38,533 bases of DNA from an uncultured Planctomycetaceae bacterium (GTDB taxonomy: Bacteria > Planctomycetota > Planctomycetia > Pirellulales > UBA1268). The notes beneath the pieces were generated by a model. That model worked only from the letters and a program-made list of their open reading frames with translations. It had not been told where the DNA came from and made no database searches. Shown in pieces: positions 3,233 to 17,397 of the stretch. Every line of letters begins with the position of its first letter. The stretch's first letter is position 1. Location of the stretch: positions 1 to 38,533 of the forward strand of contig CAIXGY010000061.1 in NCBI GenBank assembly GCA_903919035.1, written 5' to 3'. The position numbers and the translations under genes are program-made.

Positions 3233-3586
3233 ATGGTCGACACCAAGCGAAAGCCTGCCCGTCCGCCCAAGCTCACGAGCATCGAGAGCCTGTGTCAGGC
3301 GGCGGAGTGCCTCAAGACGCTTGCTCACCCCCACCGGCTCCGCATCGTGCAGATGCTGCTTAGCGGACGCTACACGGTCGGCGAGTTGGCCGAGGCCTGC
3401 GAAATCCCGAGCCACATGGCATCGGAACACCTGCGGCTGATGCAACGATGCGGCTTCCTCGATATGGCGAAGGAGGGACGGTGTGCCTACTACACGATCG
3501 CCGAGCCCCACCTCGCCAACATCATGGCCTGTATCGAGGCCCGCTTCGGCGGCCCGAAGTCGCCGCGAACCGGTGTGTCGGCCTAG
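3233..3586 (+). CDS. ArsR-family transcriptional repressor, probable sulfur sensor
   Basis: The 117-residue protein has the ArsR winged-helix core: CLKTLAHPHRLRIVQMLLSG, then the recognition region TVGELAEACEIPSHMASEHLRLMQ, then a wing GFLDMAKEGRCAYYTIAEP. It contains six cysteines (residues 21, 26, 56, 73, 84 and 100), but not the CVC metal motif of arsenic sensors. The cysteine in the last helix (NIMACIE) lies where persulfide-sensing SqrR/BigR proteins carry one of their two reactive cysteines; the partner position differs. Genes downstream handle persulfide and sulfite, so sensing of reactive sulfur is the most likely role, with autorepression through the upstream sites. The start ATG at 3233 lies close after the promoter. 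The ligand is inferred. Confidence 0.92.
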   Translation: MVDTKRKPARPPKLTSIESLCQAAECLKTLAHPHRLRIVQMLLSGRYTVGELAEACEIPSHMASEHLRLMQRCGFLDMAKEGRCAYYTIAEPHLANIMACIEARFGGPKSPRTGVSA

Positions 3587-3691: not shown

Positions 3692-4651
3692 ATGATTGCC
3701 ACGATTTCCCCGACGATGCTCGCTGATCTCCGCCGCAAGGGAGACAAGGTCACGCTCATCGACGTGCGCACGCCCGCCGAGTTCGGCGAGGTACACGTTG
3801 ATTTCGCCCAAAACATTCCACTCGACCGGCTCGACCTACAGTCCGTGAAGGCGGTGGCCGGCGACGGGCCCGTGTACTTCGTCTGCAAGTCGGGCACCCG
3901 CAGTCAGAAGGCCTGCGAGAAACTGATCGGCGCCGGGCTCAAGGACGTGGTCAGCGTCGAAGGGGGTACGACGGCCTGTGAAGCCGCCGGTGTGCCGGTC
4001 ATCCGCGGCCGCAAGGTGATGTCGCTCGAGCGGCAGGTGCGGATCGCGGCGGGGGCGCTCGTCGCCATCGGGGCGGCGCTGGCCGCCTTCGGCCCCGAGG
4101 CGCCGGTGAATTGGCAGGCGATCGGCGCGGGCCTGGCCGGCTTCGTCGGCTGCGGCCTCGTGTTCGCCGGAGTCACCGACACCTGTGGCATGGCGATGCT
4201 GATTGCGCGGATGCCGTGGAACCAGGCGTCTGGCGGCGGCTGCCGCACGGCCACCACCTGCTCGCGAGCCGTTCTGCTCGGGCTCGTGCTCGGGGCCATC
4301 TCCGGCACCGCGATCGCCGAGCACACGAAGGACTCGCTCGACGTCGTGAAGCAGGCAGTCGCGCAGCAGAAGGCGGTGATCATCGACGTGCGTGAGCCGG
4401 ACGAATGGCAGGAGGGTCACCTCGCCGGTGCCGGCCTGCTTCCGTTGAGCGCGATCGAGCGCGGCGTGCCCCCGCAGGAGCTCGCGAAGATCCTGCCGAA
4501 AGACAGGATCATCTACTGCTACTGCCTCGCCGGCGGCCGCTGCATGGAAGCCGCCGACAGGCTCAAGCCCCTCGGGTACGACGTGCGGGCCTTGAAGCCC
4601 GGCTACCCGCAGCTCGTGAAGGCCGGCTTCCCGGCCGTCGTCGGCAAGTAA
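3692..4651 (+). CDS. Rhodanese - DUF2892 membrane - rhodanese fusion protein
   Basis: This 319-residue protein has three parts. Residues 1-105 are a rhodanese domain with active-site loop CKSGTRS (Cys65). Residues 112-180 are a DUF2892/YgaP-type membrane hairpin (ERQVRIAAGALVAIGAALAA, then GFVGCGLVFAGVTDTCGMAML and MPWNQ). Together these resemble E. coli YgaP, a membrane sulfurtransferase. A third hydrophobic stretch (residues 192-209) reads like a signal peptide, and a second rhodanese domain follows (about 215-319) with loop CLAGGRC (Cys278, plus Cys284). The membrane segments could place the two rhodaneses on opposite faces or the same face; the sequence does not settle this. A strong CGGAGG lies 9 bases before ATG 3692. 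It is the first structural gene after the ArsR-family regulator. Confidence 0.93.
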   Translation: MIATISPTMLADLRRKGDKVTLIDVRTPAEFGEVHVDFAQNIPLDRLDLQSVKAVAGDGPVYFVCKSGTRSQKACEKLIGAGLKDVVSVEGGTTACEAAGVPVIRGRKVMSLERQVRIAAGALVAIGAALAAFGPEAPVNWQAIGAGLAGFVGCGLVFAGVTDTCGMAMLIARMPWNQASGGGCRTATTCSRAVLLGLVLGAISGTAIAEHTKDSLDVVKQAVAQQKAVIIDVREPDEWQEGHLAGAGLLPLSAIERGVPPQELAKILPKDRIIYCYCLAGGRCMEAADRLKPLGYDVRALKPGYPQLVKAGFPAVVGK

Positions 4652-4694: not shown

Positions 4695-6098
4695 ATGAAG
4701 ATCCAGCAGTATTACCTGTCGTGCCTGTCGCACGCGTCGTACATGATCACCGACGAGAAGACGAAGACGGCCGCGGTGGTCGATCCCCAGCGTGACATCG
4801 ACCAATACCTCGCCGACGCCAAGGCCGGCGGGTACACGATCAAGCACGTCTTCCTGACGCACTTTCATGCCGACTTCATCGCCGGCCACATCGAGCTGCG
4901 CGACAAGGCCGGGGCGACGATCCACCTTGGCCGACGGGCGGACGCGGAGTTCTCGTGCGTGAAGATGCAGGATGGCGATGTGATCGAGTTCGGCGACGTG
5001 AGGCTCGAGATCATGGAGACGCCGGGGCATACGCCCGAGGGCATCTCGATCCTCGTCTACGACCTCGCGAAGAGCCGCACCGAGCCGCTGGCCGTGCTCA
5101 CCGGAGACACGCTCTTCATCGGCGACGTGGGCCGGCCCGACCTCCTGGCGAGCATCGGCGTGACGGCCGACGAGCTAGCCGACATGCTCTACGAGAGCAT
5201 CACGAACAAGCTCGTGAAGCTGCCCGATGCCACGCTCGTCTATCCGGCTCACGGGGCCGGCAGCATGTGCGGCAAGACCCTGTCGAAGGAGACCGTCTCC
5301 ACGATCGGCGAGCAGAAGAGGTTCAACTACGCCCTCCAGCCGATGAGCCGCGAGGAGTTCAAGAAGATCGTCACGGCCGATCAGCCGGAGGCCCCCGACT
5401 ACTTCGTCCATGACGCGATCCTGAACCGCAAGGAGCGGGCGTCGCTCGGCGCGGCGATGGAAAAGACACTCAAGCCCCTATCGCTTGATGAGGTACTGGC
5501 CCTCGGGAAATCGGGTGCGCAGCTCCTCGACGTGCGCGACGGCATCGACTTCGAAGGGGGACACCTGAAGGGAGCCCTCAACATTGCCTTGAACGGCAAG
5601 TACGCGACGTGGGCTGGGTCGATGCTCGCGCACGACAAGCCGATCGTGGTGATCGCGGAGGAAGGCGGGGAGGAGGAGGCCGTGATGCGGCTTGGCCGCA
5701 TCGGCTTCGACAACGTCGCGGGCTACCTCGCCGGCGGCATGAGTGCCTTGGCGGTCCGCGACGATCTTGTGGAGCGGACGGAGCGGATCACGGCGATGGC
5801 CCTCGGCGAATGGCTCGCCGGGAAGCGGCCTGACGCCGGTGCGGCACCGATCGTCGTGGACGTGCGAAGCGAGGCGGAGCATGCGGGTGGCCACATCGCT
5901 GGCGCCTTGAACATCCCGCTCACGCATCTCGATGAGCGGATCAGTGAGATTCCGGCCGGCCGGCCCGTGGCCGTGCACTGTGAAGGAGGCTATCGCTCCG
6001 CGATCGCCGCGAGCCTGCTGCAGAAGCTCGGCCGCCGTGACGTGCACGACATGGTGGGCGGTTACAAGGCCTGGCTCGCAGCAAAGCTACCCACATGA
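4695..6098 (+). CDS. Persulfide dioxygenase-like metallo-beta-lactamase fused to two rhodanese domains
   Basis: Of 467 residues, about 1-250 form an ETHE1/persulfide-dioxygenase-type metallo-beta-lactamase domain. It has THFHADF (His56, His58, Asp60), PGHTPEG (His112), TGDTLF (Asp138), the GRPDL signature and YPAHG. Such enzymes use one Fe(II) to oxidise glutathione or similar persulfide to sulfite. Residues about 263-355 form a rhodanese-like domain with VIAEEGG where the catalytic Cys loop should be, so it is inactive. Residues about 365-467 form a rhodanese with loop CEGGYRS (Cys429), which is intact. The architecture resembles the dioxygenase-rhodanese fusions known in bacteria. The stop overlaps the exporter gene by ATGA. 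The neighbouring sulfurtransferases could supply persulfide, and the exporter could remove sulfite. Confidence 0.95.
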   Translation: MKIQQYYLSCLSHASYMITDEKTKTAAVVDPQRDIDQYLADAKAGGYTIKHVFLTHFHADFIAGHIELRDKAGATIHLGRRADAEFSCVKMQDGDVIEFGDVRLEIMETPGHTPEGISILVYDLAKSRTEPLAVLTGDTLFIGDVGRPDLLASIGVTADELADMLYESITNKLVKLPDATLVYPAHGAGSMCGKTLSKETVSTIGEQKRFNYALQPMSREEFKKIVTADQPEAPDYFVHDAILNRKERASLGAAMEKTLKPLSLDEVLALGKSGAQLLDVRDGIDFEGGHLKGALNIALNGKYATWAGSMLAHDKPIVVIAEEGGEEEAVMRLGRIGFDNVAGYLAGGMSALAVRDDLVERTERITAMALGEWLAGKRPDAGAAPIVVDVRSEAEHAGGHIAGALNIPLTHLDERISEIPAGRPVAVHCEGGYRSAIAASLLQKLGRRDVHDMVGGYKAWLAAKLPT

Positions 6099-6973
6099 TC
6101 GCCCCCGTACTGGCTGCCATCGACGCCGTCGCGGCCACGAATCCCCCCACGTGGGCAGCGGCGGCATCGGTGGCGGCTGGGAGTCTCGTCGGTCTTTCGC
6201 TGGGGCTGACCGGCGGCGGCGGCGCGATCTTCGCCGTGCCGCTGCTCGTTTACTGGATCGGCGTCGATCCGCGGACGGCCGTGAGCATCTCGCTCGTCAC
6301 CGTGGCGGCGACGGCGCTCGTCGGCGCAGTCGAGCGGTGGTGGTATGGCCAGGTCGAAGTCCGCACGGGGCTGCTCTTCGCGGCGGCGGGAATGCTGACC
6401 GCTCCGGCCGGCGGCTGGCTCGGCGGGCAGGTGCCGCCGCAGACACTCATGGCCACGTTTGCGGGGCTCATGCTGCTGATCGCCGCCAGGATGTGGCGCA
6501 AGGCATCGGATGACACCGAGCGGGCGGCCGCCGGCGTATTTGCGGCGGGAGTTGGCCCGACCTGTAGTCGCGATGCGGAGGGCCGGCTTCGGATGACCAC
6601 GCGCTGCTTCGTGCTCCTCACGCTCGTGGGGCTCGTGGTCGGGCTGCTTTCCGGCCTGTTCGGCGTCGGGGGCGGATTCCTCATCGTGCCGGCGCTCGTC
6701 GCCTTCGCCACGATGGACGTCTTTCGTGCCATCGGGACGTCGCTCTTCGTGATGACACTTGTGGGGGCCGCGGCGGTGGCCGCCCAAGTGGCTGCGGGCC
6801 GCAGCATTCCGCTCGACATCGCCGGCAGCTTCGTGGGTGGCGGCGTGCCCGCCCTGTTCGTTGGCTCGTGGATCGGCCGCCAGATCCGCGGCCCAACGCT
6901 AGCCCGCGTCTTTGCCGTCGCGATCGTCCTCGTCGCTGCCTTCATCATCTACAAGAGCATGGCGCGTATTTGA
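6095..6973 (+). CDS. TauE/SafE family sulfite/organosulfonate exporter
   Basis: The 292-residue integral membrane protein shows two homologous halves, as in TauE/SafE proteins. The first is GSLVGLSLGLTGGGGAIFAVPLLVY with GVDPRTAVSISL. The second is GLVVGLLSGLFGVGGGFLIVPALV with FRAIGTSLFVM. Repeated GxxGxGGG loops are the family hallmark, and about eight membrane helices can be drawn. Members export sulfite, sulfoacetate and related anions. The gene is coupled to the persulfide dioxygenase by a four-base ATGA overlap, which supports sulfite, the dioxygenase product, as cargo. Substrate specificity is inferred from context. Confidence 0.94.
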   Translation: MIAPVLAAIDAVAATNPPTWAAAASVAAGSLVGLSLGLTGGGGAIFAVPLLVYWIGVDPRTAVSISLVTVAATALVGAVERWWYGQVEVRTGLLFAAAGMLTAPAGGWLGGQVPPQTLMATFAGLMLLIAARMWRKASDDTERAAAGVFAAGVGPTCSRDAEGRLRMTTRCFVLLTLVGLVVGLLSGLFGVGGGFLIVPALVAFATMDVFRAIGTSLFVMTLVGAAAVAAQVAAGRSIPLDIAGSFVGGGVPALFVGSWIGRQIRGPTLARVFAVAIVLVAAFIIYKSMARI

Positions 6974-7009: not shown

Positions 7010-7582
7010 ATGATCCAATCGATCCACTCCGTCCGACGCACCGGCCTCGCCCTGGTCGTGGCGGTGGCATCGGTAGCGTCGTGCTTCGGCGCCGAGTCTG
7101 TTGTCGCTCCCGCCCTCCAGTTTCCGAAGATCGAAACATACGGTGGGGTCGTGGATCTTCCGTCGGCTGACGAACGGCCGCGGGCTGGTGGCAGAGTGGT
7201 CTTCGACACCACGGCCGCCGCACCGGCGGGTAAACCGAATCGGGGCCTCGAAAGTGCGGCCCGGCTGGTGAACATCTACGAACTGGAGGAGATGACGCCG
7301 GACCGGCCGAAGATCGCGGTGATCCTGCACTTCAACGCCACGGCGGCAGCGCTCAACGACATGGCCCATGCCAAGACGCCCGCCGGCGGTGTGAACCCAA
7401 ATCGCGAACTGGTTGAAACGCTGCTGGCCAACGGGGTGGAGGTGTGGGTGTGCGGTCAGTCAGTGATTCGCAGCGGCCACGCCTTGGCCGACGTGCTCCC
7501 CGGCATCCGTGTCGCCCATTCGGCGATGATCTTCAACACGAACCGTCAGACCGACGGTTGGGCCACGCTCGCCGTGCATTGA
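7010..7582 (+). CDS. Secreted DsrE/DsrF-like protein
   Basis: The 190-residue product starts with a signal peptide (RRTGLALVVAVASVASCFGAES). The mature part ends in a DsrE-like alpha/beta domain: RLVNIYELEEM, KIAVILHFNATAAALND, NRELVETLLANGVEVWVCGQS, then LPGIRVAHSAMIFNTNRQTDGWATL. Cys148 in VWVCGQS sits at the position of the sulfur-carrying cysteine of DsrE/TusD-type proteins. It follows the exporter gene by 36 bases. A periplasmic sulfur carrier or persulfide acceptor is plausible. Many secreted DsrE-like proteins occur beside rhodaneses, but their partners are mostly unproven. Confidence 0.9.
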   Translation: MIQSIHSVRRTGLALVVAVASVASCFGAESVVAPALQFPKIETYGGVVDLPSADERPRAGGRVVFDTTAAAPAGKPNRGLESAARLVNIYELEEMTPDRPKIAVILHFNATAAALNDMAHAKTPAGGVNPNRELVETLLANGVEVWVCGQSVIRSGHALADVLPGIRVAHSAMIFNTNRQTDGWATLAVH

Positions 7583-7598
7583 ACGGACGAACACCGTG

Positions 7599-8396
7599 AT
7601 GAAACCGGGTTTGCTTCGCGGCATAGTGCTGGCGGCGTTGATTCATGCACCGCTCGCCTCCGCGCAGCAGTTCACCGAACTCGACACGGATCGAGACGCC
7701 TTCACGCCGGCGACCCGACCGGTTCCGGCCGGCGGTGTACTCATGGAGGCGTCGTATTCATTCATCGACAACCGCGGTACGCCGGCAACAAACAGCTTTC
7801 CAGAACTACTCATTCGCCTGGGAGCCACGGAGCGATTCGAGTGGCGCGTTGGCGTGAATTACGAATCTGGATCCGGAGGGAGTGTTGTGACAGCTGTTGA
7901 GGGAGGTGAGGGCGTCGCTGGAGACGCCCTCACTTCTGAGACAAGCGTCCTCTATGGCTTCAAGGCGCTCCTCACGGAGCAGGATGGACTGGTGCCGCGC
8001 AGCAGTGCGCTCGTCGAGGCATTTACGCCCCTCTCAGGCGAGGTCTGGGGCACGGAGCCCGCGATCACATACGTATTCGGCTGGGAGCTTGTCCACGAAT
8101 GGCGGTTCGACGCGGCCATGCGCTATGTGCTCGCCGACAGCACTGAAGGGCTCTTCAACAAGTGGCTGCCCTCCGCCGTGCTTCGCATCCCGGTCACCGA
8201 ACGGTGGGAGCTTCACGCCGAATGGTTTGGGAGCTGGAGCGACGGGCTCATGGACGAAAAAGTGCGGCCTTTCGTGGGCCCCGGCACGCACTTCATGATC
8301 GCCCCCAACCTCGAGATCGGCTGCCGCATGGGCTGGGGGCTCACGCAGGACGCTGCGTCATATTTCGTTGACTCCGGGCTGGGGTGGCGGTTCTGA
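7599..8396 (+). CDS. Outer-membrane beta-barrel protein (phenol-degradation MetA/transporter-like)
   Basis: The product has 265 residues from ATG 7599; a GTG one codon earlier is an equal choice. A signal peptide (LRGIVLAALIHAPLASA) is followed by FTELDTDRDAFTPATRPVPAGGVLMEASYSFIDN. The rest is made of alternating strands such as LLIRLGATERFEWRVGVNY, AFTPLSGEVWGTEPAITYVFGWEL and WELHAEWFGSWS. It ends in a strand with terminal Phe (YFVDSGLGWRF), the usual outer-membrane assembly signal. This pattern fits the MetA-like 'transporter' barrel family. Its place 16 bases after the DsrE-like gene suggests a channel for sulfur species across the outer membrane. That role is inferred. Confidence 0.85.
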   Translation: MKPGLLRGIVLAALIHAPLASAQQFTELDTDRDAFTPATRPVPAGGVLMEASYSFIDNRGTPATNSFPELLIRLGATERFEWRVGVNYESGSGGSVVTAVEGGEGVAGDALTSETSVLYGFKALLTEQDGLVPRSSALVEAFTPLSGEVWGTEPAITYVFGWELVHEWRFDAAMRYVLADSTEGLFNKWLPSAVLRIPVTERWELHAEWFGSWSDGLMDEKVRPFVGPGTHFMIAPNLEIGCRMGWGLTQDAASYFVDSGLGWRF

Positions 8397-8619: not shown

Positions 8620-9213
8620 ATGATGAGACCGGTATTCCTCGTGGTCGTTCTCGGGGCGGTACTTGATGGTGGGGTTGTTCGAGCAGACGAGCCGCCAGCC
8701 GTCGTGAGCCGTGAAGAGTCTGCGCCCGCCCGTCCAGGCTATGGGCGAGACAGCGGCCGCTGGCAGTGGGATGACCCGAGGTTCAACGAGGATAGGAAAT
8801 GGTTCCACTTCCTCTTGGACAATCGAGCGCGGATCAGGCGCACCATCGAGCAGCTTCCCAATGGCGTGGAGACCGTCACCGAATCCGACGATCCCGAGGT
8901 GGCGGCAGGCATACAGACGCATGTGGCGACCATGCACGTCCGTCTCAAAGAAGGGCGAGGAATCCACCTCCGCGATCCGCTTTTTCGGGAGGTCTTTCAT
9001 CACGCCGATGAAATCCACATGCAGATCGAGGACATTGAAAATGGTGTCCGCGTCACCGAGACATCCGACGACCCGCATGTGGCGGCTCTCATCCAGGCTC
9101 ACGCCCACGTCGTGAGTAAGTTCATCGAGCACGGGCATGACGAGGTGAGGAAGAATCATGCCACGCCACCAAGGCCCGAGCGCCCACAGCCGGGTCGTGC
9201 GGAGCACGAGTGA
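8620..9213 (+). CDS. Secreted protein with two 60-residue repeats, unknown function
   Basis: From ATG 8620 the product has 197 residues. A signal peptide (MMRPVFLVVVLGAVLDGGVVRA) is followed by two tandem units of about 60 residues. Unit 1 spans roughly 62-120 and unit 2 roughly 121-180. Each runs aromatic-helix, a NGV(E/R) turn, T-x-SDDPxVAAxIQ(T/A)H, and a second helix. The motifs TESDDPEVAAGIQTH and TETSDDPHVAALIQAH align directly. The protein is rich in His (for example FHHADEIHM), suggesting metal or heme contacts. I know similar proteins from Proteobacteria only as hypotheticals. It is 223 bases from the barrel gene, so it may have its own promoter. The tracked GTG start at 8566 is rejected because it precedes the signal peptide. 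Confidence 0.82.
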   Translation: MMRPVFLVVVLGAVLDGGVVRADEPPAVVSREESAPARPGYGRDSGRWQWDDPRFNEDRKWFHFLLDNRARIRRTIEQLPNGVETVTESDDPEVAAGIQTHVATMHVRLKEGRGIHLRDPLFREVFHHADEIHMQIEDIENGVRVTETSDDPHVAALIQAHAHVVSKFIEHGHDEVRKNHATPPRPERPQPGRAEHE

Positions 9214-9336: not shown

Positions 9337-9954
9337 ATGACCAATCGCGCTGAGCATTGGAATCAGATTTTCGCAAGCAAGACCGACAAGGAACTCGGCT
9401 GGTACGAAGGCGACGTCAGGCAGACGCTCGCTTTCCTCGATCGAATCCCTAGCGAGAAATCCAGGACGGTATTTTTGCCTGGGGCAGGCACGTCGTTGCT
9501 CGTCGATGAGTTACTGGCCCGCGATACCCGGCTCGTCCTCAACGATATCAGCAGAGAGGCGCTGGCAAGGCTGAAGGAGCGGATCGGTGCGCGGGGCATT
9601 GAGATCGAATGGCTTCACCAAGACATCTCGCAACCGTTGCCCGTTGGTGTGACGCAGGCCGATATCTGGATTGACCGAGCTGTCCTCCATTTCCTGCTGA
9701 CGGAGCCGGAGATCGACGGCTACTTCGGGAACGTGCGTGCGGTTGTGAAGCCTCGCGGGTACGTCCTGCTTGCCGAATTCTCCGAGACCGGTGCTCCCCG
9801 ATGTGCCGGACTCGATGTCCACCGCTATACCGTGGACGAGATGCGAGTGAGGCTGGGGCAGGAGTTTTCGTTGGTATGGGCGGAGAACTACACGTTCGTG
9901 AATCCGGCCGGTGATCCGCGGCCGTATGTCTACGCACTCTTTCAGCGCACGTGA
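9337..9954 (+). CDS. Class I SAM-dependent methyltransferase
   Basis: The 205-residue product begins MTNRAEHWNQIFASKTDKELGWYE, typical of a small methyltransferase group whose N-terminus reads HWNxxxxxKxxxExxWY. The SAM-binding motif I is TVFLPGAGTSLLVDELL (residues about 44-60), with Pro-Gly-Ala-Gly in place of the usual GxGxG. It is followed by the acidic strand end VLNDIS and by ADIWIDRAVLHFLL and RGYVLLAEFS. The substrate is unknown. Its place behind sulfur genes makes thiol or sulfide S-methylation conceivable, in analogy with TPMT-like enzymes, but nothing in the sequence proves it. ATG 9337 is preferred over the tracked GTG 9301 from family length. Confidence 0.88.
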   Translation: MTNRAEHWNQIFASKTDKELGWYEGDVRQTLAFLDRIPSEKSRTVFLPGAGTSLLVDELLARDTRLVLNDISREALARLKERIGARGIEIEWLHQDISQPLPVGVTQADIWIDRAVLHFLLTEPEIDGYFGNVRAVVKPRGYVLLAEFSETGAPRCAGLDVHRYTVDEMRVRLGQEFSLVWAENYTFVNPAGDPRPYVYALFQRT

Positions 9955-10716: not shown

Positions 10717-13700
10717 TCATCCGTCCTGCTGGCGGGAGACCAGGAGGCTCCAGCAGTCGGCATAGAGCTCCACCTGGGGCCGATAATGCTCCGCGAGCAG
10801 CCGCTCGCTGGCGGCCGTCACCGCGTCGGTCTTCCAATCGACCACCGTCCAGCGGCCTGCGGTGTCGCTGAAAACAAGGTCGATCACGCCGCGGATCACC
10901 GTCGGCAGCGGCCCGCCGTCGCCAGCAAACTTCCGCACCCCCTCCGGCAGGTCCGCGCCCCGCACCTGCACGGAAAACGGCACCTCGGCCAGCCGCGCCG
11001 GGCTCGCCTGAGCCCGCCTCCAGACGTCACTGGCAAGCACGCCGCGCACGGTGGCGACGGCCCGGTCGAGGTGCACGAGCGACACGTCCTCGCTCGAAAG
11101 CACGGTGACCGCCGCAGCCGGGATATCGAGGCCACGATCGCGAAACGCGAGCTCCAGAAGCCGATGGATGGCACGACCCCACGGCTCCCCCAGGCCGTCA
11201 CCTGTGAAGCGAATGCCCTCGGCGGGTTCCGTGAGCAGTTCGCGTGGTGCGATCCGCGCGAACGTCGGCGGCACGCAGGCCGCCAGGCTGACCTGGATAG
11301 CAGCCCAGTCGCCGGGAGCAGGCTTTGCGGCCTGGGCAGGCACAGCCATGCCGGCGGCCGGCAGCCCGGGGATGTCGGGGACCCCGTCGAGATGACCGGC
11401 GAACCGCCCCCAGGCGCCGTGGGCGACGAACGCCTCGGGCTTCGTCTTCGTCGCGGGCTCGTGCTTCTCGAACAGCGACACCACGAGCCCGCACCCGGCT
11501 CGCGTGGCCGCGACATAGTCGAGCCGCAACTGCTCGGCCTCCTCGAAGGCCCGCTCGCGAAGGCGGAGATCATCCCAGCCGAGCGGGGCGGCGACGATCC
11601 TCGTGGCCCAGCCGACCGACTGCGTCACGGCGAGCCAGCCGGTGGTGCGATCACCGGCGCGATCGACGTGCAGGAACGGACCGGCGGTCGCGTCGTCACT
11701 CGGCGACCGCCGCTGGTAGTCGACGAGAAACACGACCGGAGCCTCGAGGCCCTTCGCTTTGTGGAGATTCATCACCCGCACGCGATCCGCGGAGGGCACA
11801 TCGATCGTCAGGGGGTCGAACTCCTCCCGGGTCGCCTTGCCGACGAGTTCGTCGAGCAGATCGAGGCAGTCATGGAGCGACACCACGTCGAGTCGCTCGG
11901 CCCGCAATCGCTCGAGAAACGCGAGGAGCAGACCCGCCACCGCCCGGCCACCAGGTCCTCCTGCACCGTCGGCTGCAGCGGCGAGCAGCAGGAGCCCAGC
12001 GTCGTCGATGACGCGATCCACGGCCGCGACCACCGGCAGATGCCGCTGCCATGTCCGCCAGCGGGCAATCGCGTCGCGGGCGCCGGCAAACCGAGCCGCA
12101 AGCCCCGCATCCAGCCCCGCGGGCACGTCGATCGCTCCGCCAAAGCGGCCGCCGGCCTCTCTGTAGGCGAAGAGCTCGGCATCGCTGAAGCCGAACGTGC
12201 TGCCGCGGAGGAGCGCGAGCATCGCGATCGGATCGTCGGGATCCGCCACGGCCGCGAGGCACGTGCGGACTGCGCGGAGGGACTCGGCCTGATCCTCGCC
12301 CAGCGTGCCGGTGACATCCACGGGCAAACCCGCGGCGTGCAGGGCGGCGGCGTAGATGCCCAGATGCTTCCGCTCGCGGGCCACGAGCAAAAAATCACCG
12401 GGACGGCAGGCGGTGGTGGCCCCGCGGCCTGCCTCCTCGACCGTCCGCGGCACAGCCAAGCCCGCCTCGATCGCCCCCCTGATGAAGGCCGCGACCTCGC
12501 GGGCCTCGCGCTCTACCCAGGCAGGGCCGGCGGTGCCCGCCCGCACGAAGCGCAGCGTACGGATGCCGGTGAGCCAGCCCGGCTCGCCGCCGCCAGCGGC
12601 CGCCTCACGCCGGCCGGAGGTGCTCGGCATGAAGGCGGGCGATTCGAGCGTCGCGGCCGGCGGAAACTCGGCCGCAAACACGTCGTTGGCCCAGGCGACC
12701 AAGTCCCCACGGCTCCGAAAGTTCGTGGTCAGCGCGAGCACGTCGCCGCACGCGGCGATGATGTCGCGGACGGCCGCGTAGGTGACGATGTCGGCCCGCC
12801 GGAACCGGTACAGCGACTGCTTCGGGTCGCCCACCACGAACAGCGAGCCGGCCACCGGCACACACTTCCGCCAATCGCGCTCGCCGACGTCACCTGCCGT
12901 CAGCAACAGGAGCATCTCGGCCTGCACCGGATCCGTGTCTTGAAACTCGTCCACAAGGATGTGGGTGTAGCGACGACGAAACGCCCTTCGCACCTCCGGG
13001 TGTCCAGCCAACAGCCGGGCGGCCTTGCCGAGCAGATCCTGAAACGAAAGCCCGCCCCGTTCCGCCCGCAAACGGTCGTATTCCACACCCGCCGCGCGGA
13101 GGGCCGCGATCGCCACCGGATAACGATGGGCCCTCCACTGCGCCAGCGCCGGGGCCGCCACCGTCTCCCGTAGTCGCTCCCACTCAGCCTGCCACCCGAG
13201 CGCGAGCGCTTTCTTCGCCTCACGCGTGGCAGCGGCCGTGGGTCCGCTGCCCGGCCAGTTGGTCTGCGTGACTTTCGGCGTCCGCTCCAGTTCCTGGAGC
13301 ACCTCCATGACCGCGATGACCGACGTGGTGTCACAGCGGCGCACGAGCCTGGCGAACTGCTCGAGCGCGGTCATCAGGTCGTCGCTGCCACGCGCCGCAG
13401 GCTCGGTGAACTCCGCCGCCTCGATGCGGGCTGCGAAGGACTCGATGGCCGCCACCACCGTCGCGACGTCCGGCGGCGCGGCGGCGGGCGTCGGCCAGTG
13501 CTCCACGTCACCGTAGGTGGCGAAACGCTCGATGAACAGCGGCGACAGGTCGCCGAGTCGCAGGCCGACGGCGGCGAGATCGGCCAGCAGTTGCGGATGG
13601 TCCGTGGGCGCCGCCGTGACGAAGGCGCGCCAGGCCTGTCGCCGCAGGAGCCGGTCAGCCGAATCGTCGAGTTCGCGGAAGGCGGGATCGACGCCCGCCT

Positions 13701-16700
13701 CCAGCGGTCGCTCGCGCAGCAGGCGGCCGGCGAATGAATGGATCGTGCCGATCACCATCGCATCGATCCGGGCAAGGGCGGCCGTGAATCGGGCCTGCTC
13801 GACCGGATCGGCAGCCGCAACAGCTGCCCGCTGCAACTTCTCGCGAAACCGACGACGCAACTCCGCCGCGGCTTTTTTCGTGAACGTCACCGCCACGATC
13901 CCTTCGGGCCGAGCCGTGCCGGTGCGCACCAACGCCAGCATCCGGTCGACGATGCACGTCGTCTTTCCGGTGCCGGCGGCGGCCTCGACGAGGAGCGTGG
14001 TCGTGAGATCGCCCCGGATGCGCTGCCGGACTGGCTCATCGGGCGGCGGGACCGGCGGCGCGGGATGCGGTGTGAGCGCGAGCGGTGACGGATGGGGTCG
14101 GCGGATCTCGGGCACGGCCCGTCCGCGCAACTCGCCGCGGAGCGCACCAAACAGGTCACGGAGTGCCGCGGAGGCGGCCACCATCCGGGCTGCGTCTCGA
14201 GTCACTTCTTCGGCATCGCCGCAGACCGTCGCGAAGTCGCAAAACGCGCAGTCACTTCGCTCGCTCGTCGGCAGAAAGGCGCCCTGCCCGGCGATTTCGG
14301 CAAGTTGCCGCACGAGCGTCGTGCAGGTGTAGAGTTGATCGGCCGTCCACTCGAGCCGGCGGCCTTTGCCGGCCCGCGTCGGAAAGAAATACCCGAACCG
14401 CTCCACCTGCCCGCTCCCCGCCGCACAGCCAGGATCGGCGAGCCGCGTCCGCAGCATCACCAGATAGAGCCCGTGCTGGAGCGTGCGCCCGCCCTGAAAC
14501 GGATCGGCGGCGGCGGTGTCGGGAAATCCATAGCCGCTGCCGCTCTTGTAGTCCCACAGCGTGTAGCCGCGATCGTCGCCCGATTCACGGACGTCGATCC
14601 GGTCGATCCGGCCACGCAGCCGGATCGTCTCGCCCGGCGCGAGCGACACCGCCACCGGCTCACGGACGTCGAACGGCGTGCCGCAGCCGGCTGGCTCCAC
14701 ACCGATCGCCGCCTCGATAGCCAGGGGTCTCCGCCCCGACTCCCGGCACGACCGGGCCTCGTCATGGAGGAACGTCCGCATCGCCGTGCGAAGTTCGTCG
14801 CGGCGGGCCTCGAAGGCAAGCGACGTCAGCGGCGGCTGGCGGCGTCGACTGGCCTCGAGTTCCTCGTCGAGGATCGCGTGCACGCCGGCGAGGTCACGGT
14901 CGAAGTCGGGCAACTCACCACGCTCGATGAGTCCGCGCATGAACCGCTCGAGCACCGTGTGCAGCAGGCTGCCGGCGTCGAGCGCGGTCAGCCAGCGATC
15001 GGTATCCTCGTCGAACGTGTCGAGCGGCTCGATGCCGAGACCGTATCGGAAGAAGAACCGCCGCGGGCAGGCCCCGAGCGACTCCAGACTGTTGGGCGAC
15101 GCCGCACGGCCCGCGTCTGCGCGCGGATCGAGCCGCGGGCCGGCCGCGGGCACATGCCCGTCGTAGGGCGTAAAGTCGGTGGAGGCCCGCGCCGCCGCGG
15201 CCACCTGGCCGTGCGCGAGGTAGTCGCGATGGGCGACGAGCATCGCCTGCACCTCGGCGGCGGTGGCCGTCGATCCCAGGACAGCGAGCCGCCATTGCGA
15301 CTCGTCGAGGGCGAGTGCCGGGTCGGTCGGCACGAACGACTCCGGCGGGGCCAGCGTCTGCAGCAGGTCGTCCACCGTCTCCAGCGGATCGCCGATCGCC
15401 TGGGCATGGAGCGCGAGCAGAGCCGGTGACGGAAACACCTCCGCGTCGTCGGCCATGTCGCGGCACGTGAATCCGAGCCACACCTCGCCGCGGAGCCTCG
15501 CCAACAGCCTTCGCCAGAGGTCCAGATTGCGGGCGGCGGCGTCGCGGGCCACGGTCAGCCGGGCCTCCGGCCGCACGGCGTTGATGTCCATGCGATCGCC
15601 TTCGGTGAGCACCGGATCGGTCGCAGAGCCGCCGGGGAAGCGGTTTTCGTCGAGCCCGAGCACGAAGGTGTAGGGGCGGCCGGAGTGGCCGCCCGCGGCG
15701 AACCCGCAGACATGGATGGAGCCGGGCCGCGGGCCCGAGCCCAGCACGACGAGTTCCGCCGGAAGTTGCTCGAGCCACTCGAGCATGTCACGGGCGGTGG
15801 CGCGGTCGCCCTGCCACGTCAGCATCGCATCGATCTCATCCAGGATGAGCCGCCGGGCGTTGCCGTCGAACTCACTGTCGGCGGCGCAGAGATCGTGGAT
15901 GAATCGCCGGGCCCCCTCGAGCGCCGACCTCGCGGTGGGCTCGGCGCCGCCCTCGCAGTCGCCGATGGCGCGGGCCAGCGCCACGAGGGCGTCGAGGCGG
16001 CCGGTGGTCCGCTCCTTGCGGGCCGCGAGCGCCTCGGGGGTGGCTGACTCGACGCCATCTTCTTCATCGTCGGCTCCGCGGGCGAATGCGGCGACAGGCT
16101 GCTCATGGGCCCGCGCCGCCGCGGCCGCCAGCATCGAGACGGTCCGGTCGAGTCCCCGGCCGATCTTCACACCCCGCAACTGCCGCACGAGTGCGCCGGC
16201 CCGCGGCGCGTCGGGCAGGAGACGGGCCAGGTCGATCACGCCGTCACGGAGCAGCCGCTCGAATCCGGCCTGCGGATGGCCGTCGCGCCGCCAGGCAAGC
16301 CAGCCTGCGAGCGCCCGGCCGGGCTTCGAGTCGGCCAGCGGCAGCCCCTCGGCAAAGGTGACGGGCAGATGATCGTCGCGGCCCCCACCCGGCGCCGGCG
16401 GCCGAGGCAGGGCAGCGACAATCTCGCGGACGAGCGCGGGATACGTGGCCGCGTCGGTGTGGATGATCTCGATCTCATCGAACCGCAGGCCACGGGCCAG
16501 TGCCGTCCGCAGCACGTGGCGGACTTCATTGGCTTCGCCGGCGGCGCGGAAGATGGAAATATGCTTTATGTCGATCGGAGCCGGAGCCGCGGGGAGCGGC
16601 TGGTCGGTCGAGAGCGTGCGGACGGTCACGCCTGGAGCGGCGGCGAGCGCGTCCAGCAGCCGACGTTCGAGCGGTGGCGGATCGACGTCATCGGGGACGA

Positions 16701-17397
16701 GCACGACCTCGATCGCGGGTGGCACGCGGCCCGTGGCCACATGGTCGATCGCGAGGGCGAACTCGCCTGACTGGTCGATGAGATTGACCGCCTCGAGTGA
16801 CGCCGTGTAGCGGTCGAGCAGGAGGCCGATGTCGCGGGCCCGCGCCGTGTGCCCCAACGCGGCGACGAGATCGCCCGACGTGAGGCCCGACGCCCGCAGC
16901 GCCTCGAGGCTCACCAGCACCCGCTCGGCGAGCCGGCGCAGCGGACCAATCACGTCACGGAACGACTCGAGATCGCCGCGACTCTCCTCGAGCATCCGCT
17001 CCACGGCCACGAGCCTGGCCCGCGGCGGGGCCAGTGCGGTGCCCGACGCGGCCAGCGTGTCGGCAACGATGTCGAAGGCGAGGGCGGGCAGCGTGGTGAC
17101 GTGCAGATCGCCGACCGGATGACCGAGGCGGACGATGGTCTCGACCCACTCCTGCCCCACGCGGCGCGACGGGGCGACGAGCCAGGCGGAGCCGCCGCCG
17201 CGAGCGACGATCTCGTCGAGCGCGGCGATGAGCGACCGGGAGAGCGTGTTGGCCTGCGGCGGCGCCCGGCCCGGCAAGCCGCCGGCCACCATCCCCAGCC
17301 GGCTCGACGCGGGCACGGGCACCTCGAGCGCATGCCAGGCCGGGGATTGCCACGCGGTCGCCGCAGGCCGGTCGGAGGTCTTCCGTGACGAACTCAT
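10717..17397 (-). CDS. Single-chain AddB-AddA helicase-nuclease fusion
   Basis: One open frame of 2226 codons carries both subunits of an AddAB-type double-strand-break resection enzyme. Residues about 1-760 resemble AddB's helicase-like region, with a degenerate Walker A (LVAPSRRVGQEW). Residues about 770-1060 form the AddB Fe-S nuclease: GACPRRFFF (first Cys), DAGSLLHTVLERF, TLWDYKSGSG (Asp949) and CAFCDFATVC. A proline-rich linker follows (about 1100-1125). The AddA half has Walker A AAGTGKTT (Lys1145), ILVDEFQDTDP (Asp1483), VVGDPKQSLYRFRRADI, VMNLHKAKGLEAPVVFL, YVAATRA, and a C-terminal nuclease with GVIDLVF and VVDWKTD (Asp2187). AddA and AddB are normally separate genes. There is no internal stop or frameshift. 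The amidohydrolase gene lies 174 bases upstream on the same strand. Confidence 0.93.
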   Translation of the reverse strand: MSSSRKTSDRPAATAWQSPAWHALEVPVPASSRLGMVAGGLPGRAPPQANTLSRSLIAALDEIVARGGGSAWLVAPSRRVGQEWVETIVRLGHPVGDLHVTTLPALAFDIVADTLAASGTALAPPRARLVAVERMLEESRGDLESFRDVIGPLRRLAERVLVSLEALRASGLTSGDLVAALGHTARARDIGLLLDRYTASLEAVNLIDQSGEFALAIDHVATGRVPPAIEVVLVPDDVDPPPLERRLLDALAAAPGVTVRTLSTDQPLPAAPAPIDIKHISIFRAAGEANEVRHVLRTALARGLRFDEIEIIHTDAATYPALVREIVAALPRPPAPGGGRDDHLPVTFAEGLPLADSKPGRALAGWLAWRRDGHPQAGFERLLRDGVIDLARLLPDAPRAGALVRQLRGVKIGRGLDRTVSMLAAAAARAHEQPVAAFARGADDEEDGVESATPEALAARKERTTGRLDALVALARAIGDCEGGAEPTARSALEGARRFIHDLCAADSEFDGNARRLILDEIDAMLTWQGDRATARDMLEWLEQLPAELVVLGSGPRPGSIHVCGFAAGGHSGRPYTFVLGLDENRFPGGSATDPVLTEGDRMDINAVRPEARLTVARDAAARNLDLWRRLLARLRGEVWLGFTCRDMADDAEVFPSPALLALHAQAIGDPLETVDDLLQTLAPPESFVPTDPALALDESQWRLAVLGSTATAAEVQAMLVAHRDYLAHGQVAAAARASTDFTPYDGHVPAAGPRLDPRADAGRAASPNSLESLGACPRRFFFRYGLGIEPLDTFDEDTDRWLTALDAGSLLHTVLERFMRGLIERGELPDFDRDLAGVHAILDEELEASRRRQPPLTSLAFEARRDELRTAMRTFLHDEARSCRESGRRPLAIEAAIGVEPAGCGTPFDVREPVAVSLAPGETIRLRGRIDRIDVRESGDDRGYTLWDYKSGSGYGFPDTAAADPFQGGRTLQHGLYLVMLRTRLADPGCAAGSGQVERFGYFFPTRAGKGRRLEWTADQLYTCTTLVRQLAEIAGQGAFLPTSERSDCAFCDFATVCGDAEEVTRDAARMVAASAALRDLFGALRGELRGRAVPEIRRPHPSPLALTPHPAPPVPPPDEPVRQRIRGDLTTTLLVEAAAGTGKTTCIVDRMLALVRTGTARPEGIVAVTFTKKAAAELRRRFREKLQRAAVAAADPVEQARFTAALARIDAMVIGTIHSFAGRLLRERPLEAGVDPAFRELDDSADRLLRRQAWRAFVTAAPTDHPQLLADLAAVGLRLGDLSPLFIERFATYGDVEHWPTPAAAPPDVATVVAAIESFAARIEAAEFTEPAARGSDDLMTALEQFARLVRRCDTTSVIAVMEVLQELERTPKVTQTNWPGSGPTAAATREAKKALALGWQAEWERLRETVAAPALAQWRAHRYPVAIAALRAAGVEYDRLRAERGGLSFQDLLGKAARLLAGHPEVRRAFRRRYTHILVDEFQDTDPVQAEMLLLLTAGDVGERDWRKCVPVAGSLFVVGDPKQSLYRFRRADIVTYAAVRDIIAACGDVLALTTNFRSRGDLVAWANDVFAAEFPPAATLESPAFMPSTSGRREAAAGGGEPGWLTGIRTLRFVRAGTAGPAWVEREAREVAAFIRGAIEAGLAVPRTVEEAGRGATTACRPGDFLLVARERKHLGIYAAALHAAGLPVDVTGTLGEDQAESLRAVRTCLAAVADPDDPIAMLALLRGSTFGFSDAELFAYREAGGRFGGAIDVPAGLDAGLAARFAGARDAIARWRTWQRHLPVVAAVDRVIDDAGLLLLAAAADGAGGPGGRAVAGLLLAFLERLRAERLDVVSLHDCLDLLDELVGKATREEFDPLTIDVPSADRVRVMNLHKAKGLEAPVVFLVDYQRRSPSDDATAGPFLHVDRAGDRTTGWLAVTQSVGWATRIVAAPLGWDDLRLRERAFEEAEQLRLDYVAATRAGCGLVVSLFEKHEPATKTKPEAFVAHGAWGRFAGHLDGVPDIPGLPAAGMAVPAQAAKPAPGDWAAIQVSLAACVPPTFARIAPRELLTEPAEGIRFTGDGLGEPWGRAIHRLLELAFRDRGLDIPAAAVTVLSSEDVSLVHLDRAVATVRGVLASDVWRRAQASPARLAEVPFSVQVRGADLPEGVRKFAGDGGPLPTVIRGVIDLVFSDTAGRWTVVDWKTDAVTAASERLLAEHYRPQVELYADCWSLLVSRQQDG

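Follow-up and report, generated by a model that had tools for sequence, protein, structure and literature searches.

What does a small, apparently exported protein of no assigned function do amongst a set of sulfur genes? The question is posed by an open reading frame, referred to here as X, found in a 38,533-nucleotide stretch of DNA from an uncultured Planctomycetaceae bacterium ('the window'), where its surroundings are as follows:

3233-3586, forward strand: ArsR/SmtB-type repressor, with BigR (a sulfide sensor) among the best subfamily matches, below that model's cut-off
3692-4651, forward strand: YgaP-like membrane rhodanese with a second rhodanese domain, by library match
4695-6098, forward strand: persulfide-dioxygenase-like metallo-beta-lactamase with two rhodanese domains, by Pfam and NCBIfam; homologue near X in 18 loci
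6095-6973, forward strand: member of the TauE/SafE sulfite exporter family, by library match; homologue near X in 14 loci
7010-7582, forward strand: DsrE-like protein, putatively exported, with a cysteine (C148) in a CGQ motif (PF02635, score 38.2 against a cut-off of 22.7)
7596-8396, forward strand: outer-membrane-type protein (PF13557) between DsrE and X, by library match
8623-9213, forward strand: X, a putatively exported two-repeat protein of 196 amino acids, from the open reading frame list and family alignment (alternative ATG at 8620)
9337-9954, forward strand: SAM methyltransferase of cytoplasmic type, by library match; homologues beside X elsewhere

Judged on these matches, the ArsR, rhodanese, persulfide dioxygenase, TauE and DsrE genes are a sulfide/persulfide detoxification set, with repressor, persulfide dioxygenase and TauE standing in one run as in clusters of the bigR/cst type. 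Elsewhere in the same genome, a second persulfide-dioxygenase-like copy lies at a contig edge (L092, G000:C206:1-1359) and is 83% identical to 4695-6095 of the window; no second X was found in that genome. On the reverse strand of the window, positions 10717-17397 hold an ORF of 2226 residues with, by eye, the look of an AddB/AddA-type helicase-nuclease fusion.

Working from the start of the gene, we see two candidate initiation codons, ATG at 8620 and ATG at 8623, with the stop ending at 9213; the second is favoured, as the run AAAGGGGG sits directly 5' of it (residues are nevertheless numbered here with the ATG at 8620 as residue 1). The 226-base gap upstream holds a terminator-like site, though in number such sites do no better than chance (three found, 1.7 expected). 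To the eye, the N-terminus (MRPVFLVVVLGAVLDGGVVRA/DE) is like that of a Sec signal peptide, and the mycobacterial and acidophile members of the family carry N-termini that look, again by eye, Tat-like (RR followed by A, T or N); we infer from these sequences that X is exported. With its 14 histidines and no cysteine in 196 residues, the protein agrees with the initial annotation, which had placed a secreted, His-rich ORF at 8620-9213.

That annotation also knew of no function for X, and the libraries supply none. Neither Pfam nor NCBIfam returns anything above cut-off; 62 family members run singly against Pfam give scattered weak matches with no family in common; PHROGs yields no convincing match to the family; searches of PDB sequences, with the protein and with the family profile, produce chance-level matches only; a phage collection contains no relative; and we found no description of the family in the literature. 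X does not belong to DsrE/DsrF (PF02635), there being no profile match above the Pfam cut-off and no sulfur-carrying cysteine, and the Spy/CpxP profile (PF07813, LTXXQ) does not match it either. Two kinships were considered and set aside: DUF1059 (PF06348), sub-threshold in 2 of 62 members, and Spore_YhcN_YlaJ (PF09580), sub-threshold in 8 of 62; searched against the window's genome, neither model scores a hit at E≤10. Matches by phmmer to ankyrin/DARPin, SLC30A10 and nitrogen-fixation proteins were judged to be chance. X is a real, conserved and undescribed domain family, putatively exported, that matches nothing in the libraries searched; homology to a characterised family, which would have overturned the initial annotation, is absent from Pfam, NCBIfam, PHROGs and the PDB.

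The family numbers about 60 distinct relatives, mostly from Planctomycetota, the remainder coming from mycobacterial and proteobacterial plasmids (12 plasmid records, from mycobacteria, Aminobacter, Neotabrizicola, Acidiphilium and Acidithiobacillus). A scan of named genomes, for which the query was a four-sequence X alignment (a broader one being too variable for pattern scans), located 32 loci, 31 of them planctomycete and one betaproteobacterial; a contig search with a single X protein as query recovered no relatives. X is present, always in single copy, in 25 of 392 sampled Planctomycetota genomes, the phylum to which the whole-genome sample is confined, such that relatives from outside it are under-sampled. 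Its distribution is patchy, since just one of the 21 other genomes in the window's own genus has it. Gene calls in the X loci are mechanical.

The initial annotation described X as two 60-residue repeats, and self-alignment bears this out:

8803-8955, forward strand: repeat 1, residues 62-112, helix + beta hairpin + helix (self-alignment, AlphaFold)
8983-9135, forward strand: repeat 2, residues 122-172, helix + beta hairpin + helix (self-alignment, AlphaFold)

No gap is needed to align the two, which lie exactly 60 residues apart; 18 of 51 positions are identical and the score is 77, where 2,000 shuffles average 23 and reach 61 at most. In 62 of 68 members, likewise, the alignment of the two halves outscores each of 200 shuffles. 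An AlphaFold model of the 133-residue core, built from an alignment with 52 relatives from which the plasmid sequences had been left out (mean pLDDT 96, pTM 0.88), predicts the order helix-strand-strand-helix, twice over, as does a full-length model. Foldseek with the core model finds nothing in the PDB at E≤0.001 (best E 0.14, to a designed protein), and the best match amongst predicted viral structures has E 0.017; matches to H-NOX (E about 0.5-1.3) and to histidine-kinase folds were judged to be chance. Compared with the PDB and predicted viral structures, the modelled fold of X may be new.

Conservation is concentrated at a handful of positions. T87, H101, M105, G142, H161 and G172 are invariant in all 69 aligned sequences, with R74 and G82 absent from just one truncated fragment. 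Four codons specify the candidate ligands, as identified from the family alignment:

8920-8922, forward strand: H101, invariant in 69/69, candidate ligand
8932-8934, forward strand: M105, invariant in 69/69, one helix turn past H101, candidate ligand
9100-9102, forward strand: H161, invariant in 69/69, the repeat-2 equivalent of H101, candidate ligand
9157-9159, forward strand: H180 in the tail, His in 54/69 and Met in 8/69, possible further ligand

H101 and H161 occupy equivalent positions in the two units. The conserved histidines of the initial annotation are therefore there in part: H101 and H161 throughout and H180 in the majority, but most of the remaining histidines among the 14 vary. 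A lack of His conservation between orthologues, which would have overturned that annotation, is the reverse of what the family shows at these two or perhaps three positions. As 65 of 69 cores have no cysteine, X would be unable to carry a persulfide itself. In some planctomycete members (L043, L046, L048, L061) a Cys-rich N-terminal extension with CCGKC, CGDC or CKC motifs precedes X, the composition of which suggests a further metal-binding segment.

Who, then, are the partners of X? A DsrE domain follows X in the same protein at 20 of 60 loci, a SAM methyltransferase precedes it at 8, and at 6 all three are joined in the order methyltransferase-X-DsrE. The DsrE protein of the window (7010-7582) matches the X-fused DsrE domains at up to 1.5e-34, and the CGQ cysteine is invariant in 22 of 22 DsrE domains; as it belongs to the same subfamily, what in the window are separate DsrE and X genes have, at other loci, a single fused counterpart. 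The methyltransferase at 9337 is of another type to those fused with X; in L055 and L066, X comes directly after a homologue of it, and in L087 there is one nearby. X-fused methyltransferases in L011 (L011:793-1941), L055 and L072 have signal-peptide-like N-termini, clearest in L011. X is fused as well, in L090, to a MauG-type di-heme peroxidase and, in L087 (L087:7657-9243), to a Tll0287-like domain; a Tll0287-like protein also adjoins X at L043:6491-7114. A C-terminal domain bearing the motif YIPALALTNQ, with no Pfam match, follows X in five planctomycete loci (L079, L089, L090, L042 and L053), and in L090 leads into the MauG-type peroxidase.

The sulfide setting of the window recurs. At 21 of 60 loci, at least one of three genes (persulfide-dioxygenase-like, TauE, SQR) lies no more than five ORFs from X; by individual gene, persulfide dioxygenase lies near X at 18 of the 60, TauE at 14, SQR at 13 and RND efflux genes at 10. 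On a tree of 66 X sequences the sulfide setting is scattered, not confined to one clade, and needs about 16 changes, which argues that the association has been made or kept many times. A phylogenetic profile against sulfur genes, proposed with the initial annotation, shows co-occurrence as well: 14 of the 25 X-positive planctomycete genomes encode a type III SQR-like protein, compared with 23 of the 367 others (Fisher 8e-10, shared ancestry uncorrected), and 21 of the 25 encode persulfide dioxygenase, compared with 125 of the 367 (Fisher 1e-6, shared ancestry uncorrected). In a same-genus relative (G018), X lies outside any sulfide set.

The plasmid relatives present a second setting, in that most adjoin resistance genes for Cd, Hg or As; their neighbours include P-type ATPases, CadD, ArsR, MerA, arsenic genes, a Spy-like LTXXQ protein (encoded near X in L002) and two-component systems. 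The C-terminal tails of nine plasmid/proteobacterial members are 16-35% Met, where the figure for long ORFs in those loci is 2.1%; these members have Met at the position of the planctomycete H180. The initial annotation had proposed X as a candidate component of a sulfur gene set: the recurrent sulfur setting and the DsrE fusions agree with this, but the RND neighbours, the metal-resistance plasmids and G018 show it to be too narrow, and X, judged by the company it keeps, is not a dedicated sulfur-oxidation component.

Taking these strands together, our preferred reading—held tentatively, at a little less than even confidence—is that X is an exported module that binds a soft metal, probably of the Cu(I) type, through His and Met, and sits beside a DsrE carrier in sulfide operons. 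The set of invariant His/Met ligand types expected of a periplasmic soft-metal-binding protein is present (H101, M105, H161), and its invariance extends to relatives of about 25% identity; a metal site is, as far as sequence can argue, well motivated. We infer that a single soft ligand, probably a metal ion akin to Cu(I), would be held by H101 and M105 from the first unit and H161 from the second, perhaps assisted by His or Met from the tail; a single shared site would then arise from the duplication, with each helix-hairpin-helix unit supplying residues. In sulfide operons, X might act beside or within the DsrE protein, whose single cysteine would carry sulfane sulfur, with X retaining the soft metal, or metal-bound sulfur, in the periplasm during the export and oxidation of sulfide-derived species; on metal-resistance plasmids, the Met-rich-tailed form might serve as a metal buffer. 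Counting against this reading, the X of the window is His-rich, not Met-rich, and stands behind a gap with a terminator-like site, albeit one no better than chance; the X of G018 lies outside a sulfide set. The metal settings also differ (Cd, Hg, As, efflux), such that no single metal is implied.

The main rival, on the strength of cytochrome-type partners seen at a few loci, is that X is a heme domain, in which a b-type heme is ligated by H101 with H161 (or by H161 with M105) and electrons pass between sulfur enzymes and cytochromes. An invariant Met and two invariant histidines that sit on matching helices would suit such a site; the MauG fusion of L090 and the two Tll0287-like proteins, one fused and one neighbouring, point the same way, as do SoxA/TsdA-type cytochrome c genes adjoining X in four loci and a cytochrome in L087. 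We nevertheless regard it as unlikely: X has no CxxCH motif and no conserved cysteine, its plasmid members are accompanied by metal resistance and Met-rich tails in place of cytochrome neighbours, and no heme protein matches convincingly by sequence or fold, the H-NOX values given above being noise.

To be rated no higher is a non-catalytic scaffold or chaperone, docking DsrE and methyltransferase, for which the invariant His and Met would be structural or bind a small anion. The frequency with which X is fused, at either of its ends, and the lack of any catalytic motif found in it, would fit a docking role, and the conserved R74 and T87 could form an anion site; His and Met are, however, unusual as invariants that hold a fold, and plasmids carry X alone, with neither DsrE nor methyltransferase. 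An enzyme acting on sulfur species with Zn or Cu—releasing or methylating sulfane sulfur, for instance, with the attached DsrE and methyltransferase—could draw on the His/Met/His set alongside a conserved Arg and Thr and on the six triple fusions, but appears quite improbable, as Met ligands are rare among hydrolytic Zn enzymes, X resembles no enzyme family, and an exported methyltransferase would need a supply of SAM that goes unexplained.

Returning to the soft-metal module, its fullest version would make X an undescribed, exported domain of new fold whose duplicated halves build one His/Met/His site, forming with the fused DsrE and methyltransferase a periplasmic complex for metal-assisted handling of sulfane sulfur, and reused on plasmids as a module of soft-metal resistance; as a whole, this version is rather unlikely. 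The family matters in any case, being missing from Pfam, NCBIfam, PHROGs and the PDB (sequence and fold) and yet spread across Planctomycetota and mycobacterial and proteobacterial plasmids. The repeated X-DsrE fusion offers a concrete, testable partner pair for periplasmic sulfide handling, and occurrence in both sulfide operons and metal-resistance cassettes would tie soft-metal to sulfide chemistry in the cell envelope.

Several small periplasmic proteins handle metals with Met-rich segments, amongst them CusF, Spy/LTXXQ and similar proteins. Plasmid members of X share with these a Met-rich tail, a metal-resistance setting and, to judge by their N-termini, export, but match them in neither sequence nor fold, the predicted alpha-beta-beta-alpha repeats of X differing from both the CusF barrel and the helical cradle of Spy. 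The link to DsrE/DsrF (PF02635) is one of partnership, by fusion in 20 loci and as a separate gene in the window; X itself has neither a PF02635 match nor a conserved cysteine. As a whole, the locus is a sulfide-detoxification cluster of a type already known. In published accounts (PMC5823870, PMC5480029), bigR/cst operons place a persulfide dioxygenase-rhodanese, TauE and SQR under a repressor that senses persulfide. The window has, likewise, a single run of genes that encodes rhodaneses, TauE and a persulfide-dioxygenase-like protein along with an ArsR-type repressor, to which the loci of X relatives add a type III SQR-like protein. It differs from them in that the window's genome has no match to type III SQR, and in the addition of two putatively exported proteins, X and DsrE, that elsewhere are often one.
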